11,078 nucleotides of DNA from Anaerolineae bacterium (GTDB lineage: Bacteria; Chloroflexota; Anaerolineae; 4572-78; NAK82). A model generated the notes under the pieces. That model had not been told where the DNA came from. It made no database searches and saw nothing but the letters and a program-made list of their open reading frames with translations. A program made the position numbers and the translations under genes. Positions 2,676 through 8,720 of the stretch are shown one piece after another. Positions within the stretch are counted from its first letter, which is position 1, and each line of letters opens with the position of its first letter. Location: contig JAUVPY010000038.1 in NCBI GenBank assembly GCA_030598425.1, positions 1-11,078 on the forward strand, in the 5' to 3' direction.

Positions 2676-4130
2676 TCAGTTCAATCGATCTGGGGTTGTG
2701 TGAGGCTGGCTTGGCAGGGCGATAACAAACGCAGTGCCCTCGCCCCGCGTGCTGGAGACGGAGATCGTACCACCCTGGGCCTCGACCAGCGATTTGGCAA
2801 TCGCCAGCCCCAGCCCGGATTCGCCCTCGTCGGTTTCGCGGGCAGCATCGCCGCGATAGAACCGGTCGAAGACGTGTGGTAGATCGGCGGGGGCGATGCC
2901 CGTGCCGGTGTCCTGGACAGTGAGGTGTATGGCGCCGGCGTGTTGCCGAGCAGCAAGCGTGATGCGCCCGCCCCCGGGCGTGTGGCGCAAGGCGTTGCCG
3001 ATCAGGTTCCCCAACACCTGGGCCAACCGCTCCGGGTCGACGTGGACGGGCGGCAGACCGGGGGCGGGGTCCACGTGAAGCGCGATACCCAACCCCTGGG
3101 CCTGGGGCAGATAGGCGGCAGCGGTCCGCTCCAGCAAGTCACGCGGTGAGGCCGGCCGGCAATTGAGCGTAAGCTCGCCCGCATCTACCAACGATAGGGT
3201 TCGCAGGTCCTCGATCAAATGGCTGAGGTGCTCGGCTTCCCGGTAGATCGTGTCAAAGGTAGCCGTGGTGGGAGGTAGATCCTCATCCCGCAGAGCCTCG
3301 GCATAGCCCTTGATCACCGTGAGCGGCGTGCGCAAGTCGTGGGCGATGTCGGCCGTCATCTGGCGGCGGGCCTGATTGGCACGCGCTAACTCAGCGCTCA
3401 TCTGATTGAACGCGAGGGCCAACTCGCCCAGTTCATCCTGGGAGCGGACGGTGACGCTTTGCTCCAGATCACCCTGAGCCATGGCTCGAGAGGCAGCGGT
3501 CAACTCGCGCAGAGGACGCGTGAGCGTCCTGGCCAGCAACAGGCCCAGGGGCAAGGCGATCAAGGCGGCGCCCAGCGCTGCATAAAGCAAGGCCCGGTTG
3601 ATACGCGTGAGAAACAGCTCCTCGCGGGGAGTGAGTTCGGGTGGCTCCCCTGCGGTAAGCACCGTCCCCACCACCTGGCCGTCAACTTCAACCCCAACCC
3701 CGCGCGCCAATTCCTCAGCGGGGACGTAATCGCCGACGCGATATGGCCCGGCAGGGACCACCACGTATCCATCCTGATCCACCAGCGCAAAGGCAAAGGA
3801 TGGTGGTGGTTGTGTTCCTGGATGCTCGGCGTCCGCCGATGGCAATGGTAGCTCTGCCGGTGGCTGTCCGGGGCGATCGCGGGCTGGGGGAGGCCCCGAC
3901 GATGGCGCCAACCCTCGCGGGGGAAAATACCCCATCACCCCCGCCCACGATCCATTTGCGCGGTAATATGTAGCTGCGTCGGCAACAAACTCACTCTGCG
4001 CCTGGTCTAACACCAGGCTCCCAAACTCTGTAAACGTGCTCCACCTGGCAAGGACAGCGGCCAGGGCGGCGCCGATAATGCTCACAATAAGGAAAGCCAG
4101 TGCCAATTTCAGAGTCAGGGAGCGTATCAT
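2676..4130 (-). CDS. Membrane sensor histidine kinase (HAMP-HisKA-HATPase)
   Basis: This 484-residue inner-membrane sensor kinase is the partner of the adjacent response regulator. One membrane segment spans about residues 8-29 and a second about 179-201, leaving an external sensor region of about 150 residues. A Pro-rich stretch lies at about 74-110 within it. A HAMP linker (about 200-253) precedes the HisKA box DIAHDLRTPLTVIKGYAEAL, with phospho-acceptor His264. The ATP-binding domain has an N box with Asn375 and Asn379, the G1 motif DTGTG (407-411), an F box FDRFY (421-425) and the G2 motif GLGLA (439-443), so the catalytic core looks intact. The ATG lies 3 nt after the regulator stop codon, indicating translational coupling. 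The architecture is BaeS/PhoR-like, but the signal sensed cannot be read from the sequence. Confidence 0.95.
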   Translation of the reverse strand: MIRSLTLKLALAFLIVSIIGAALAAVLARWSTFTEFGSLVLDQAQSEFVADAATYYRANGSWAGVMGYFPPRGLAPSSGPPPARDRPGQPPAELPLPSADAEHPGTQPPPSFAFALVDQDGYVVVPAGPYRVGDYVPAEELARGVGVEVDGQVVGTVLTAGEPPELTPREELFLTRINRALLYAALGAALIALPLGLLLARTLTRPLRELTAASRAMAQGDLEQSVTVRSQDELGELALAFNQMSAELARANQARRQMTADIAHDLRTPLTVIKGYAEALRDEDLPPTTATFDTIYREAEHLSHLIEDLRTLSLVDAGELTLNCRPASPRDLLERTAAAYLPQAQGLGIALHVDPAPGLPPVHVDPERLAQVLGNLIGNALRHTPGGGRITLAARQHAGAIHLTVQDTGTGIAPADLPHVFDRFYRGDAARETDEGESGLGLAIAKSLVEAQGGTISVSSTRGEGTAFVIALPSQPHTTPDRLN

Positions 4131-4133
4131 GGA

Positions 4134-4835
4134 TCACGCCCCAGCCGGTGGGCTATCTGCGCAAAAGCGATATCCCACGCCGAACACGGTCTCAATGTAG
4201 CGCGGTTTACTCGGGTCCGGCTCGATCTTGGAGCGCAGGTTGCTGATGTGGACGTTGATGGAGCGCTCCATGCTATCAATGGATACCCCTTGAATAGCCT
4301 CCAGCAACGAGGCGCGGGTAAAGACCCGCCCTGGAGCGGACATCAACTCGGCCAACAGGTCAAACTCAGTGGGAGTCAGAACCACAGGCTCGCCACCGAC
4401 GCTCACCGCCCGCGTTTCCTTATCGAGCGTGATGTCGGCCGCACGCAGCACCTCTGGAGGAATGCTGCCTTTCCCGGCGCGACGCAGCACGGCACGGATG
4501 CGGGCCGACAGCTCGCGCATTCCAAAGGGTTTTGTGATGTAGTCGTCGGCACCTAGCTCCAAACCTACCACCTTGTCTGATTCCTCCAGCTTCGCCGTAA
4601 GCAGGATAATCGGCGCGTCGCTTTCTTTGGTAAAGACACGAATGAACTCGTAACCGTCCATCTCGGGCATCATGATGTCGAGGAGGATCAGGTCAGGTTT
4701 CTCCTCCCGCGCCACGAAGAGGGCTTCCTGGCCATTGGCTGCAGTGACCACGCGAAAGCTCTGCCCGGTCAGGTAGTCCTCGACCATTTTTCGCAAACTC
4801 GCTTTGTCATCCACGACCAAAATCGTCTTTGGCAT
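4134..4835 (-). CDS. OmpR/PhoB-family response regulator
   Basis: This 233-residue DNA-binding response regulator has an N-terminal receiver domain with the acidic pair Asp9-Asp10, phospho-acceptor Asp53 (LLDIMMPEMDG), Thr80 and Lys102 (TKPFG). It ends in a winged-helix domain (about 135-228) with the typical LTPTEFDLLAELMSAPGRVF and RSKIEP...YIETVFGVGYRF patterns. I chose the ATG at 4835 because a strong GGAGGGAGGGAG ribosome site lies just before it and the protein then begins MPKTILVVDD, as usual for the family. An in-frame ATG 12 codons upstream (4871) would add a non-conserved extension. The gene leads a two-gene operon with the kinase. It is the likely binder of the 11-bp-phased hexamers in the divergent region, since PhoB/PhoP/OmpR proteins bind such direct repeats. 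Confidence 0.96.
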   Translation of the reverse strand: MPKTILVVDDKASLRKMVEDYLTGQSFRVVTAANGQEALFVAREEKPDLILLDIMMPEMDGYEFIRVFTKESDAPIILLTAKLEESDKVVGLELGADDYITKPFGMRELSARIRAVLRRAGKGSIPPEVLRAADITLDKETRAVSVGGEPVVLTPTEFDLLAELMSAPGRVFTRASLLEAIQGVSIDSMERSINVHISNLRSKIEPDPSKPRYIETVFGVGYRFCADSPPAGA

Positions 4836-4913
4836 ATCTCCCTCCCTCCGGGCTCGGAACCAGCGTGGCATCAGCAGGCGGCGGTCTAACCCTATGGTTG
4901 GATCTCAAACAAG

Positions 4914-4941
4914 ATTATATATCCTGACCTCGAATCTGCAA
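4914..4941 (-). promoter_or_regulatory. Candidate promoter of the response regulator-kinase operon
   Basis: Read on the minus strand, a perfect TATAAT occupies 4919-4914, preceded by TTGCAG (4941-4936) with a 16-bp spacer. The -35 matches the consensus at only 3 of 6 positions, so an activator may help. The predicted leader is about 70 nt before the ATG at 4835. Confidence 0.5.
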
Positions 4942-5041
4942 CCAAACGCCACGCGCTTGCACGTAACATCCAGTCTATCACACTCATTTGCTTGCTCGGT
5001 TGAGTGCCCGGTGATCCTGGCTAAAGCATACCGAACAGATG

Positions 5042-5080
5042 TTAAGAAGTGGTAAAGACGGGATAAAGATTTGGTTCAGG
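5042..5080 (+). promoter_or_regulatory. Distal cluster of 11-bp-phased hexamers (putative response-regulator operator)
   Basis: Four hexamers start exactly 11 bp apart: TTAAGA (5042), TAAAGA (5053), TAAAGA (5064) and a weaker TTCAGG (5075), each separated by 5 bp. This layout is that of PhoP/OmpR-class operators, for example Bacillus PhoP boxes of TTAACA-like hexamers with 5-bp gaps. The adjacent gene encodes such a regulator. The cluster is about 120 bp upstream of the regulator operon -10 and about 90 bp upstream of the -10 of the secreted-protein gene, so it could serve either side. Confidence 0.65.
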
Positions 5081-5130
5081 TCCGGCCCCCGTTGAAACGG
5101 AAAGATGCGTCACACGAAATCTGTATCAGA

Positions 5131-5158
5131 TCTGAACCTCATCTTTACCACTTCTTTA
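5131..5158 (-). promoter_or_regulatory. Proximal cluster of 11-bp-phased hexamers (putative response-regulator operator)
   Basis: On the minus strand there are TAAAGA (5158-5153), TAAAGA (5147-5142) and TTCAGA (5136-5131), again at 11-bp steps. The 15-mer TCTTTACCACTTCTT (5142-5156) is the exact reverse complement of 5044-5058 in the distal cluster. The cluster ends 11 bp before the -10 at 5170 and occupies the -35 region, as in PhoB-activated promoters. I infer activation of the downstream gene by the phosphorylated regulator. Confidence 0.66.
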
Positions 5159-5169
5159 CAACTGCTTGG

Positions 5170-5175
5170 TATATT
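5170..5175 (+). promoter_or_regulatory. -10 element of the secreted DUF1566 protein gene
   Basis: TATATT (5170-5175) matches 5 of 6 positions of the -10 consensus and predicts a start near 5182, giving a leader of about 35 nt. No good -35 exists at 16-18 bp; the operator cluster lies there instead, suggesting an activator-dependent promoter. Confidence 0.55.
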
Positions 5176-5216
5176 CCGGTCGAAAAGACAAAACATTCAA
5201 TAGAAAGGAGTAAAAA

Positions 5217-6941
5217 ATGTCTTTCAAAAAATCACCATTCGTTCTTTTGCTCATCGTGTTCAGTTTGATCCTGGCCGCCTATTCACAACAGGCGGCTCAA
5301 GCCCTGGCCGCCAGGCCGGATCTGGCAGAAAGCACGGCGGTTCAGGAAATACCCTCGGAGACAGATAACCCAACTGTACCATTGGACTCGACCGACACCT
5401 ATACTGGCTCGGTCTATCTGCCAATCATTACGGGCGGCCGGCAAACCACGGCCGGCGGTTACACCGTGGTCGACACCGGGCAGACCAACTGCTACGACAA
5501 CCAGAACACAACCGCCTGCCCGCAGCCTGGGGGATCGTTTTACGGCCAAGACGCCCAGTACGCCGGCGTGCAACCCAGCTACGTCGACAACGGCGACGGA
5601 ACGGTGACGGACGTCAATAGCGGCCTGATGTGGCAGAAAACCCCAGGCGACAAGGTTACGTTTGCCGAGGCCGTAGCGGGTGCGGAATCCTTCAATCTCG
5701 CCGGCTACGACGATTGGCGACTACCGACCATCAAGGAACTCTACTCCCTTATGGGCTTCAGCGGAAGCACCGGTATGTCTGCAGGGACCTCCGTGCCTTA
5801 TATCGATACAGACTACTTTGATTTCGAATATGGGGATACGAGCGCAGGCGAGCGCTTCATCGACGCCCAATACTGGTCCAGCACTCAGTACGTCGGCACT
5901 GTCTTTGGCGGCCAAGCCGCCGTCTTTGGGGTCAACTTTGCCGACGGACGCATCAAAGGGTATCCACGCGATACCGGACCTGGCGGCTCACCCATGACCG
6001 AGTTTGTCCGTTACGTGCGAGCCAATCCCGATTATGGCGTCAACAGTTTTGTCGATGATGGCGGCCCTTCGGCGGGCTCAGGACAGGTCACCGACCAGGC
6101 GACCGGCTTGATGTGGCAGAAGGGGGACAGTGGCACCACGATGACCTGGGAGAACGCCCTCGAGTACTGCGAGAACCTGGAAAATGCCGGGTACGACGAC
6201 TGGCGACTGCCGAACGCCAAGGAACTCCAGAGCATTGTCGACTATGCCCGTGCACCCGACGCGGCGGATCCGGCCCAGCAGGGTCCGGCGATCGATCCTA
6301 TCTTTGACATCACCGAGACCGAATCTTGGTTCTGGACGAGCACGACCCACGTGGAAGGCCCAAGGGGCGATTTCGCAGCCTACGTTACGTTCGGACAGGC
6401 ATACGGCGTGTTAACCGACCCAACAGGCAACGACGCTCTGGTCAATGTTCACGGCGCGGGTGCACAGCGCAGCGATCCAAAGAGTGGTGACCCGGCTGAT
6501 TGGGCGGGGGGACACGGCCCCCAAGGTGATGAAATCCGCATCTACAACTATGTCCGCTGCGTACGGAATGGTGCCCAGTTCGTAGAAGTGACCAGCTCGG
6601 GCAGTGATGAGGCGGGTGTTCAGCCAGCGGCGGGTAACCAACTACCTGGCGGGGGAGAGCCGCCAACAGGTGAGCGGCTGCTTGGAGGTAACCAGCCTCC
6701 CGATGCGGAGCAATCACCCACGAGTGGGCAGTTCCCCGGACGCAACCAGCCACCGAGCGGGGAAGGGGTACTCACGGGCGGGCAACCGCCCACGGAAGCC
6801 ATCAGCGCCTGCAGCGGTCTGAGCGAGAACGCAGCCTGCGAATTCACCTCGCCGCGAGGTTCTGTCACTGGCACCTGCAGGCTGGTTCAATCTCAACTGG
6901 CCTGCGTACCGCAAGGGGGCCCGCCTGGAGGATCACCATAG
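5217..6941 (+). CDS. Secreted protein with two DUF1566 (Lcl C-terminal-like) modules, Gly/Pro stalk and four-Cys tail
   Basis: This 574-residue exported protein starts with a signal peptide (about residues 1-31, ending AQALA). A linker containing VYLPIITGG follows. DUF1566 module 1 spans about 81-269, with VDNGDGTVTD, SGLMWQKTPGD, GYDDWRLPTIKEL, YWSST and FVRYVR. Module 2 spans about 270-450, with VTDQATGLMWQK, GYDDWRLPNAKELQSI, FWTST and YNYVRCVR. DUF1566 occurs in surface proteins, including Legionella collagen-like adhesin, but has no settled enzymatic role. Residues 465-528 form a Gly/Pro/Gln-rich stalk with NQPP/GQPP repeats. The end (531-563) has four cysteines (CSGL...ACEF...GTCR...LACVP), probably two disulfides. 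Module 2 lacks the usual DNGDGT; it carries GPSAGSGQ, encoded by a short repeat-like tract at 6065-6087. An AGAAAGGAG site precedes the ATG by 7 nt. A surface or adhesive role is inference. Confidence 0.9.
   Translation: MSFKKSPFVLLLIVFSLILAAYSQQAAQALAARPDLAESTAVQEIPSETDNPTVPLDSTDTYTGSVYLPIITGGRQTTAGGYTVVDTGQTNCYDNQNTTACPQPGGSFYGQDAQYAGVQPSYVDNGDGTVTDVNSGLMWQKTPGDKVTFAEAVAGAESFNLAGYDDWRLPTIKELYSLMGFSGSTGMSAGTSVPYIDTDYFDFEYGDTSAGERFIDAQYWSSTQYVGTVFGGQAAVFGVNFADGRIKGYPRDTGPGGSPMTEFVRYVRANPDYGVNSFVDDGGPSAGSGQVTDQATGLMWQKGDSGTTMTWENALEYCENLENAGYDDWRLPNAKELQSIVDYARAPDAADPAQQGPAIDPIFDITETESWFWTSTTHVEGPRGDFAAYVTFGQAYGVLTDPTGNDALVNVHGAGAQRSDPKSGDPADWAGGHGPQGDEIRIYNYVRCVRNGAQFVEVTSSGSDEAGVQPAAGNQLPGGGEPPTGERLLGGNQPPDAEQSPTSGQFPGRNQPPSGEGVLTGGQPPTEAISACSGLSENAACEFTSPRGSVTGTCRLVQSQLACVPQGGPPGGSP
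6065..6087 (+). repeat. Short dispersed-repeat-like tract inside DUF1566 module 2
   Basis: The 23-bp tract begins CCCTTCGGCGGGCTCAGGA and is in frame, encoding roughly PSAGSGQ. It replaces the expected NGDGT of the module with about five extra residues. From memory, near-identical tracts (CCTTCGRCRRGCTCAGG type) recur widely in Chloroflexota and other environmental genomes; I could not verify copies beyond this window. Confidence 0.5.
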
Positions 6942-6976
6942 GAAGTTCGCCGGGCACCCGATAGGCCGGACGTGTC

Positions 6977-7034
6977 GGGACACGGACGGCACGGATAACA
7001 CGACTATTCGCCTTAACCGTGCGGTCCGTGTCCC
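6977..7034. repeat. Intergenic palindromic element between the two secreted-protein genes
   Basis: GGGACACGGACGGCACGG (6977-6994) and CCGTGCGGTCCGTGTCCC (7017-7034) are inverted copies with a single mismatch (17 of 18), enclosing 22 bp. A shorter competing palindrome CGTGTC-GG-GACACG sits at 6971-6984, and CCCAAA/TTTGGG (7032-7037/7045-7050) could pair next to it. No T-tract follows, so it is not a standard terminator. It resembles the CACGGATTACACGG-type palindromic repeats of environmental genomes (recollection). As RNA it may act as a stability or attenuation element between the two genes. Confidence 0.7.
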
Positions 7035-7079
7035 AAAGACAAGATTTGGGACCCAAACACAGAGAAAGGAGCTAGGGAA

Positions 7080-8720
7080 ATGAAGTTGTATACATCGTTA
7101 AAATATTGGAAGGTGATTCTTCAGCTTCTGATCATAGTCGTTTGTCTAGCAACTTTACCCCAGTTAACCAAGGCCCAAAGTGGCCCCCCAACGACCAGTT
7201 ACACCGTGACTGACACCGAGCAGACCAGGTGCTATGACAACACCAACGAGATTTCCTGCCCGCAGTCGGGTGAGGCCATCTACGGCCAGGACGCCCAGTA
7301 TAACGGCGTTCAGCCTAGCTACGTAGACAACGGCACCGTGACGGACCTCAATACCAGGCTGATGTGGCAAAAGACCCCAGGCGACAAGGCCACGTTAGCC
7401 GAGGCGGTTGAGGTCACTGACACCTTAGATATCGACACGGCAACTGCCACCATCACCAGTGCTACCCCCCCCACCATGCCATACAGGGTTAATCTACCGC
7501 TAATCATAGGGGGACCAGAGGATGACAGCAACGCTTCTGGTGAGTTTAACCTGTTCGCCCCCTTGCGCTCCACCACCACCTACTTGATGGATAATGACGG
7601 AGCCGTCGTCTACACCTGGGCGAGCGATTATGGACCTGGAAACTCGGTATACTTGCTGGAGAACGGCAATCTCCTGCGCACCGGCAACACGAGGTCAGGG
7701 AGCTTTGAAGCTGGCGGTGCGGGCGGCATTGTGCAGGAGATCGCGCCGGATGGCACGGTGGTCTGGGAATTCGAATATGTCAGTGACCAGGTCCGGCTGC
7801 ATCATGACATCGAGCCGCTGCCCAACGGCAACGTGTTGATGATCGCCTGGGAGCGCAGGACTGAAGCCGAGGCCATCGCCGCAGGCCGTAACCCCAGCCT
7901 GATGAGGGATGGAGAAATATGGCCGGACCACATCATCGAGGTCAACTCGACGATTGGCGCCATCGTCTGGGAATGGCACGTCTGGGACCACCTCATCCAG
8001 GATTTCGACCCGACGAAAGAGAACTATGGCATAGTGATCGACCATCCCGAGTTAGTCGACCTGAACTTCAGCTCTGGCGGTCTTCCCGGTGATCCCGATT
8101 GGAATCACACCAACTCGATTGATTATGACGCAGAACTTGACCAGATCCTACTCAGCGTGCGCAGTTTCAGCGAAATCTGGGTGATTGACCACAGCACCAC
8201 CTCTGCCGAAGCAGCGGGACACGCCGGCGGCAACAGTGGCAAGGGCGGTGATCTCCTCTACCGCTGGGGTAATCCCAAGGCCTACGACGCTGGAACCGCT
8301 GCCGACCAGATGCTCTTTGTGCAGCACGACGCGCAGTGGATTCCGTCCGGCTACCCGGGAGAGGGAAACATCCTGGTGTTCAACAACGGCACGGGACGTT
8401 CCAGCGGCAACTACTCCTCGGTCGACGAAGTCATCCCGCCAGTGGATGCCTCTGGCAACTACACGCTAACCGCCGGCTCGGCCTATGGACCGGCAGAACC
8501 AATCTGGATGTACAGGGCTGACAACCCAACGGATTTCTACGCCAACCGGATTTCCGGTGCCCAGCGACTTTCCAACGGGAATACACTCATCTGCGACGGC
8601 CCCAACGGCACCTTCTTTGAGGTCACGCCAGAGAATGACGTCGTCTGGACGTACGACTATGAAGGCGAAGTGTTCAGAGTCACCCGCTACGCGTCGGACT
8701 ATCCGGGGCTTCCGGATTAA
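7080..8720 (+). CDS. Secreted chimera: truncated DUF1566 module fused to an arylsulfotransferase (ASST)-like domain
   Basis: This 546-residue exported protein has a signal peptide at about residues 1-33 (…LTKAQS). Residues 40-112 copy module 1 of the upstream protein (53 of 73 aligned residues identical by hand count) but stop before the conserved GYDDWRLP, and GDG is reduced so that VDNGTVTD remains. A linker with RVNLPLIIGG follows. Residues about 155-540 form an ASST-like beta-propeller with repeats such as DNDGAVVYTW, APDGTVVWEFEY, LPNGNVL and LSNGNTLI. Family-like conserved positions include HHD (241-243), WNHTNSIDYD with His343, SVR with Arg361 and QHDAQW with His416, which parallel the His/Arg active-site set of E. 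coli ASST. ASST enzymes move sulfate between phenolic compounds outside the cytoplasm; the substrate here is unknown. The ATG has AAAGGAG 9 nt upstream. The gene lies 138 bp after its neighbour, probably in the same operon. Confidence 0.9.
   Translation: MKLYTSLKYWKVILQLLIIVVCLATLPQLTKAQSGPPTTSYTVTDTEQTRCYDNTNEISCPQSGEAIYGQDAQYNGVQPSYVDNGTVTDLNTRLMWQKTPGDKATLAEAVEVTDTLDIDTATATITSATPPTMPYRVNLPLIIGGPEDDSNASGEFNLFAPLRSTTTYLMDNDGAVVYTWASDYGPGNSVYLLENGNLLRTGNTRSGSFEAGGAGGIVQEIAPDGTVVWEFEYVSDQVRLHHDIEPLPNGNVLMIAWERRTEAEAIAAGRNPSLMRDGEIWPDHIIEVNSTIGAIVWEWHVWDHLIQDFDPTKENYGIVIDHPELVDLNFSSGGLPGDPDWNHTNSIDYDAELDQILLSVRSFSEIWVIDHSTTSAEAAGHAGGNSGKGGDLLYRWGNPKAYDAGTAADQMLFVQHDAQWIPSGYPGEGNILVFNNGTGRSSGNYSSVDEVIPPVDASGNYTLTAGSAYGPAEPIWMYRADNPTDFYANRISGAQRLSNGNTLICDGPNGTFFEVTPENDVVWTYDYEGEVFRVTRYASDYPGLPD

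Follow-up and report, generated by a model that had tools for sequence, protein, structure and literature searches.

Positions 5025–5175 of the window (the whole 11,078-nucleotide stretch of DNA analysed here) very probably comprise two divergent OmpR/PhoB-type operator-promoters controlled by the adjacent response regulator, one of which would serve the regulator's own operon. As judged by sequence comparison, the operator pair appears to be real and well supported; the kind of switch is known and this instance is new, and a search of titles and abstract openings, mostly outside the subscription journals, returned no paper on this operator. The prediction would assign a two-component system its operator and a first target, with autoregulation as part of the circuit, and the box signature can be used for regulon prediction in relatives.

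Two box arrays and the genes on either side

Read on the strand of the genes served, each cluster consists of four 6-bp boxes at 11-bp steps, followed by N10 and a –10 hexamer: CTGAAC-N5-CTTTAT-N5-CTTTAC-N5-CTTAAC-N10-TATGCT leftward, toward the regulator and kinase, and CTGTAT-N5-CTGAAC-N5-CTTTAC-N5-CTTTAC-N10-TATATT rightward, toward the DUF1566 gene (Table 1). Because each cluster stops 10 bp short of a –10 hexamer, we take the functional unit to be 5025–5175. The first-pass annotation had described the hexamers on the strand opposite to the genes served, and the hexamers, the 11-bp steps and the perfect 15-bp inverted match that it listed (5044–5058 with 5142–5156) are all in place. On the plus strand, TTAAGA at 5042 and TAAAGA at 5053 and 5064 are joined in register by TTCAGG at 5075, as read from the sequence; on the minus strand, TAAAGA at 5158 and 5147 is followed in register by TTCAGA at 5136. 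Its count of four hexamers on one side holds, whereas the three that it gave for the other side should also be four.

The centres of the two clusters are separated by about 80 bp, and the clusters are identical at 27 of 33 positions over the last two boxes, the spacer and the –10. The spacer between boxes is CACTT at the window as compared to AAYTT at most orthologous sites, which mostly have CTTAAC or CTGAAC where the window has CTTTAC. Boxes 1 and 2 of the rightward array are partly covered by a 10-bp palindrome, TCAGATCTGA (5126–5135).

Table 1. Features of the window, with coordinates, strand and basis.
Feature	Position	Strand	Basis or detail
Sensor histidine kinase gene	2676–4130	–	HAMP, HisKA, HATPase_c; immediately follows the regulator gene
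OmpR/PhoB-family response regulator gene	4137–4835 (coding part as searched)	–	Pfam receiver PF00072 and Trans_reg_C PF00486
–10 element TATGCT, leftward (regulator/kinase) promoter	5025–5030	–	10 bp past the last box; sequence
Leftward operator (predicted)	5041–5079	–	CTGAAC 5079–5074, CTTTAT 5068–5063, CTTTAC 5057–5052, CTTAAC 5046–5041; 11-bp steps
Rightward operator (predicted)	5121–5159	+	CTGTAT 5121–5126, CTGAAC 5132–5137, CTTTAC 5143–5148, CTTTAC 5154–5159; 11-bp steps
–10 element TATATT, rightward (DUF1566) promoter	5170–5175	+	10 bp past the last box; sequence
DUF1566/Lcl_C protein gene	5217–6941	+	PF07603, two Lcl_C stretches; first gene of the rightward unit
Arylsulfotransferase-like (ASST) gene	7080–8720	+	PF05935

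The regulator belongs to the OmpR/PhoB family, with both Pfam domains recognised (PF00072, 4.1e-30; PF00486, 9.8e-26), and carries the recognition helix ERSINVHISNLR. The NCBIfam cut-off was reached by none of the best 25 models listed for the regulator, nor by any of those listed for the kinase. The regulator scored 220.1 bits against the PhoB equivalog TIGR02154 (cut-off 296.2), 228.3 against the MtrA equivalog NF040689 (cut-off 300), 182.5 against the BaeR equivalog (cut-off 380) and 170.7 bits against the heavy-metal CopR/CzcR/SilR model TIGR01387 (cut-off 279.2), and the kinase scored 233.6 against BaeS_SmeS (cut-off 500), though its residues 112–472 align. Below every listed cut-off, the kinase is nearest to cell-envelope and metal sensors, and we infer the probable kind of signal from this placing. 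Among the 80 named loci kept, the five best matches to the regulator (49–56% identity) come from Candidatus Thermoflexus, two Chloroflexi bacteria, Anaerolineales and Anaerolineaceae, and the remaining named matches are mixed, with many Clostridia.

On the rightward side, the DUF1566 protein begins with a hydrophobic, signal-like stretch, and a GAF/PAS kinase lies beyond the ASST gene. The gap between the DUF1566 and ASST genes (6942–7079) holds a strong hairpin (–57.6 kcal/mol, z = –4.9, matched by 0 of 200 shuffles) with no T run behind it, perhaps an attenuator or a protector of the mRNA end. The matrix scan found no array in this gap and we found no operator belonging to the ASST gene itself, which is possibly co-transcribed with the DUF1566 gene. 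The start of the ASST protein (window 7185–7430) is 66% identical to residues 75–160 of the neighbouring DUF1566 protein, suggesting local duplication and fusion.

The array upstream of regulator homologues

We scanned the regions upstream of 30 regulator homologues (51–100% identity) and of 60 further ones (60–79%; the best new ones in the list, minus some near-duplicates dropped by hand) with a matrix trained on 13 hand-picked sites. Part of the search behind these sites required a –10 starting with TA at 10 or 11 bp, and the sites came from seven genomes of the first 30 loci (the window's own, G000, and G004, G005, G006, G014, G021 and G024, of which G004–G006 are of the same genus); each training genome was left out of the matrix when it was scanned. 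The 60 loci added later provide a fairer test than the first 30. All matrix scans, whether of homologues, paralogues or own-genome regulators, allowed the –10 only at 10 or 11 bp, so that the spacing to the –10 is tested by a boxes-only scan alone.

With the held-out matrix, the four-box array plus –10 was found on the regulator's own strand at 19 of the 30 loci of the first set, with none of 200 shuffles as good; a few of the 19 score low (for example, L035 at 2.6). We defined a strong site as one on the regulator's own strand with a score of at least 15 and none of 100 shuffles as good, base 4 of each box being left flat. By this measure, and with G014 counted from the larger stretch L126, strong sites lie upstream of 50 of the 90 homologues (18/30 in the first set and 32/60 in the second). 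In five of the 90 the best site was as strong but lay on the opposite strand. For the 40 homologues outside the 50, the best site in the upstream stretch examined fell below the criterion, and L217 has a sub-threshold site scoring 12.4. Some of the homologues that lack a site have upstream stretches that are short or cut by a contig end (L206, L223, L232 and L242 are short); L209, L210, L214 and L224 have no site in the full 3 kb upstream.

The boxes-only scan of the 60 new loci detected arrays that beat 100 shuffles at 37 loci, 29 on the regulator's strand and eight on the other. In 28 of these 37 arrays, which had been found without using the –10, a –10-like hexamer (beginning with TA, ending in T and matching at four or more of six positions) stood exactly 10 bp beyond the last box, and any other distance from 0 to 35 bp was seen in at most two arrays. 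In the same 60 regions, same-strand half-site pairs occurred 43 times at 11 bp, 13 times at 22 bp and 15 times at 33 bp; the remaining distances averaged 4.3 pairs (s.d. 2.6), and shuffled sequences gave about 2.

The same threshold was reached by one of 20 OmpR-family paralogues (L259) from genomes that hold the orthologue; another paralogue, L265, has a weaker array (12.6, 0/100 shuffles). In the window's own assembly, which is 2.96 Mb and 63% complete, no array was found in the upstream stretches examined of seven other OmpR-family regulators, one of which is also among the 20 paralogues. On sequence grounds, the DNA signature appears unusually clear across the regulator family: its 11-bp direct repeats, held at a fixed distance from the –10 and conserved with the regulator, are those of an OmpR/PhoB-type operator, and comparison establishes the array, its –10 spacing, its direction and its predicted link to the regulator. 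The conserved arrays and the fixed spacing support the first-pass proposal that an operator of this type occupies the –35 position of the DUF1566 promoter. That the adjacent regulator exerts this control, also proposed there, is supported by the arrays kept at the regulator's homologues together with the co-occurrence at DUF1566 genes described below.

DUF1566 genes and other candidate targets

Homologues of the DUF1566 protein were present in seven of the 61 genomes searched. The array lies upstream of the DUF1566 gene in all three genomes with a regulator orthologue (the window's own, G020 and G014; regulator identity 69–100%; 0/200 shuffles each), and in none of the four others (G016, G012, G018 and G010), where the best regulator match is at most 52%; these four assemblies are 74–97% complete, so an orthologue could be missing by chance. 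Fisher's exact one-sided p, calculated by hand, is 1/35 with the window and 1/15 without it. In both G020 and G014 the DUF1566 gene and the regulator are on different contigs; a pattern search had already turned up the G014 site, and the G020 site emerged from a blind scan. The regulator of G020 itself has no array in the 1054 bp upstream. The closest regulators (78–79%; G291 and G232) are both preceded by an array, and a tblastn search (E up to 1) of the 3 kb upstream gave no DUF1566 match for either. The rightward half of the arrangement therefore rests on two other genomes, in which the DUF1566 gene is unlinked to the regulator. The divergent arrangement of regulator and DUF1566 gene was seen nowhere else in the loci examined. 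Another divergent array pair is found in G024, with the third boxes 50 bp apart, a –10-like hexamer for each array and a DUF4405 protein on one side.

The array also precedes an ABC transporter in G004 and G005 (ABC_tran, then MacB_PCD/FtsX; Pfam recognises the ATPase in both, and the permease was checked in G005). Genes for a PMT_2/YkcB_C protein carry it in G014 and in G348, where the gene stands ahead of the regulator. It is likewise seen at genes for small proteins located before the regulator: DUF5666 in G014, DUF2680 in G024 and a DUF2680 match below the cut-off in G058. Three related small proteins stand ahead of the regulator in G004–G006, and the one tested matched no Pfam family.

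The search for TWAAGA-N5-TAAAGA that the first-pass annotation had suggested gave five matches in the 2.96-Mb assembly, three of them in this region, as compared to none for the backwards pattern, which is more than chance. Allowing up to one mismatch, CTTWAC-N5-CTTWAC-N10-TATNNT matches only the two window sites, both with no mismatches. With a matrix trained without this genome, the leftward array scores 44.4 and the rightward one 33.0, the best of 100 whole-window shuffles being 12.0. A plain hexamer match elsewhere in the genome (C473:639) has a matrix score of –0.8, and we took it as chance.

An intergenic region on contig C447 of the same genome (L006, 9090–9320) has a CTTTAC pair on each strand, the rightward array scoring 27.1 (maximum of 100 shuffles, 10.6) and the leftward one only 0.5. 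A Met-rich protein and a heavy-metal ATPase flank it on one side, and SHOCT and cupredoxin-like proteins on the other. We considered it as a copper regulon of the window regulator and did not assign it so, because the boxes there look more like the ones seen in a paralogous subfamily (L259, G050). In three relatives, CTTWAC pairs with a –10 at N10 stand before PBP_like_2 genes (L134, L135 and L139), and the same type of pair precedes a 149-aa frame without a Pfam match at a contig end (L152); these four may perhaps be a Pho box of close design. The sequence CTTTACTGAAYTTTTAC occurs at five places in G012 (L140, L153, L167, L174 and L175).

Proposed circuit, alternatives and the recognition helix

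Several known regulators use sites of similar geometry. Mycobacterium tuberculosis PhoP binds as a tandem head-to-tail dimer to 7-bp motifs with a strict 4-bp spacer, that is, an 11-bp step, and binds three or four motifs in a row more tightly than two (PMC4832192); the step is like that of the window, while the motif differs (TCACAGC as compared to CTTWAC), and we do not claim common ancestry of the sites. Escherichia coli KdpE recognises two 6-bp direct repeats with 5 bp between them, a size and separation that the window boxes share, and PhoB makes base contacts through T194, V197, R201 and R219 (PMC3264566); both differ from the window system in box sequence and, by the NCBIfam cut-offs, in the regulator itself. 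A parallel in layout is the two-component regulator CopR of Corynebacterium glutamicum (PMC3140484). Its direct repeat TGAAGATTTgaTGAAGATTT has an 11-bp step and contains CTTCA on the complement, like the CTTCAC boxes of remote homologues here, and the copR-cg3286 box sits in the intergenic region that separates the divergent copR operon from a second gene set, both of which it controls, as we propose for the window. CopR, however, uses one two-box site for both sides, whereas the window has two four-box arrays, one per promoter, and the copper signal of CopR has been demonstrated (PMC3140484), unlike the window signal, for which we have a prediction.

In the circuit that we propose, the regulator would bind both arrays, most likely once phosphorylated by the adjacent kinase, and each array would be filled by two tandem head-to-tail dimers. 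The bound regulator would replace the –35 contact and bring RNA polymerase to the –10 element, which begins 10 bp beyond the last box. On the left it would control its own operon, and such autoregulation could act as a self-amplifying switch; rightward, it would turn on the DUF1566 gene and perhaps the ASST gene too. We infer binding, phosphorylation, the signal and activation rather than repression from the DNA and protein sequences, activation being read from the position of the boxes.

It is unlikely that a different OmpR-family regulator (a PhoB-type one, or the regulator on contig C252 of the same genome) binds these boxes, with adjacency being incidental or a matter of cross-talk. CTTWAC pairs of similar kind, again with N10 before a –10, do precede the phosphate-binding-like PBP_like_2 genes of G007, G017 and G020; in G050 such sites stand before an HlyD-type protein and before a Met-rich protein whose gene is followed by one for a heavy-metal (HMA/YHS) protein; and the paralogues L259 and, more weakly, L265 have arrays of their own. 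But the spacer is GCACC, CTACC or TGAGC before the PBP genes and ACATT or ACAAC in G050, unlike CACTT in the window and AAYTT at most orthologous sites, none of the seven other regulators of the 63%-complete own assembly has an array in the stretches examined, and the DUF1566 sites track the presence of the adjacent regulator's orthologue. We consider it quite improbable that the regulator acts here as a repressor of either promoter or of both. The boxes do span the –35 region, where a repressor could sit too, but the exact 10-bp distance in 28 of 37 arrays found without the –10 is what is expected of an activator replacing the –35, since a repressor would need no fixed distance. A scan for sigma-70 –35/–10 pairs in 4830–7100, which likewise speaks against repression, found none; as shuffles average only 0.8 pairs, the scan has little power and the absent –35 is weak evidence alone.

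The first-pass annotation had suggested looping between the clusters, and the two could in principle form one control unit for the DUF1566 gene, which the shared 15-bp inverted match and the distance of about 80 bp between the arms would fit. This reading is very unlikely, and we reject it because each cluster owns a –10, at an equal 10-bp spacing, and a gene; the regulators of G291 and G232 are preceded by single arrays although their 3 kb of upstream sequence contain no DUF1566 gene, and in G024 each divergent array has a –10-like hexamer of its own. From this layout, the far cluster, which faces the regulator, appears to be the regulator's own promoter and not a looping enhancer. The 27 of 33 identical positions would also fit a rightward array that arose recently by inverted duplication of the leftward promoter and has no regulatory use itself. 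We regard this as highly improbable: in G020 and G014, DUF1566 genes unlinked to the regulator have arrays as well, so the window locus is not alone in having this target, and an origin by inversion is in any case compatible with function.

In the recognition helix, with the pattern VHI-X-NLR, residue X varies together with base 4 of the boxes. Where X is Lys, base 4 is C in both last boxes (10/10); where X is Arg, it is A in the last box in 36 of 38 cases and in the second-last box in only 26 of 38 (9 C, 2 T, 1 G). Ser goes with T, with one exception: the last two boxes of the window have T then A leftward and T,T rightward, and those of G348 have T,T. A third Ser regulator, G108, has no site in its 683 bp upstream. 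On a tree of the 90 regulators that included the helix column, X changes five times and the last-box base four times, giving one independent Lys/Arg pair and one or two Ser/Arg pairs; the base shifts in the expected direction in nearly every pairing and never in the opposite one. As there are too few independent pairs for proof, the relation between helix and box stays a lead. A one-residue code (Arg to A, Lys to C, Ser to T), in which the window regulator and its operators would have co-switched to Ser and T to form a private regulon, is a tentative suggestion that we hold to be rather less than probable. In our own alignment, X falls on what we take to be R200 of PhoB. The same alignment places X at Ser219 of M. 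tuberculosis PhoP, which is reported to hydrogen-bond a phosphate (PMC4832192). The matched regulators and sites offer a testable case of OmpR-family recognition helices changing their DNA preference.
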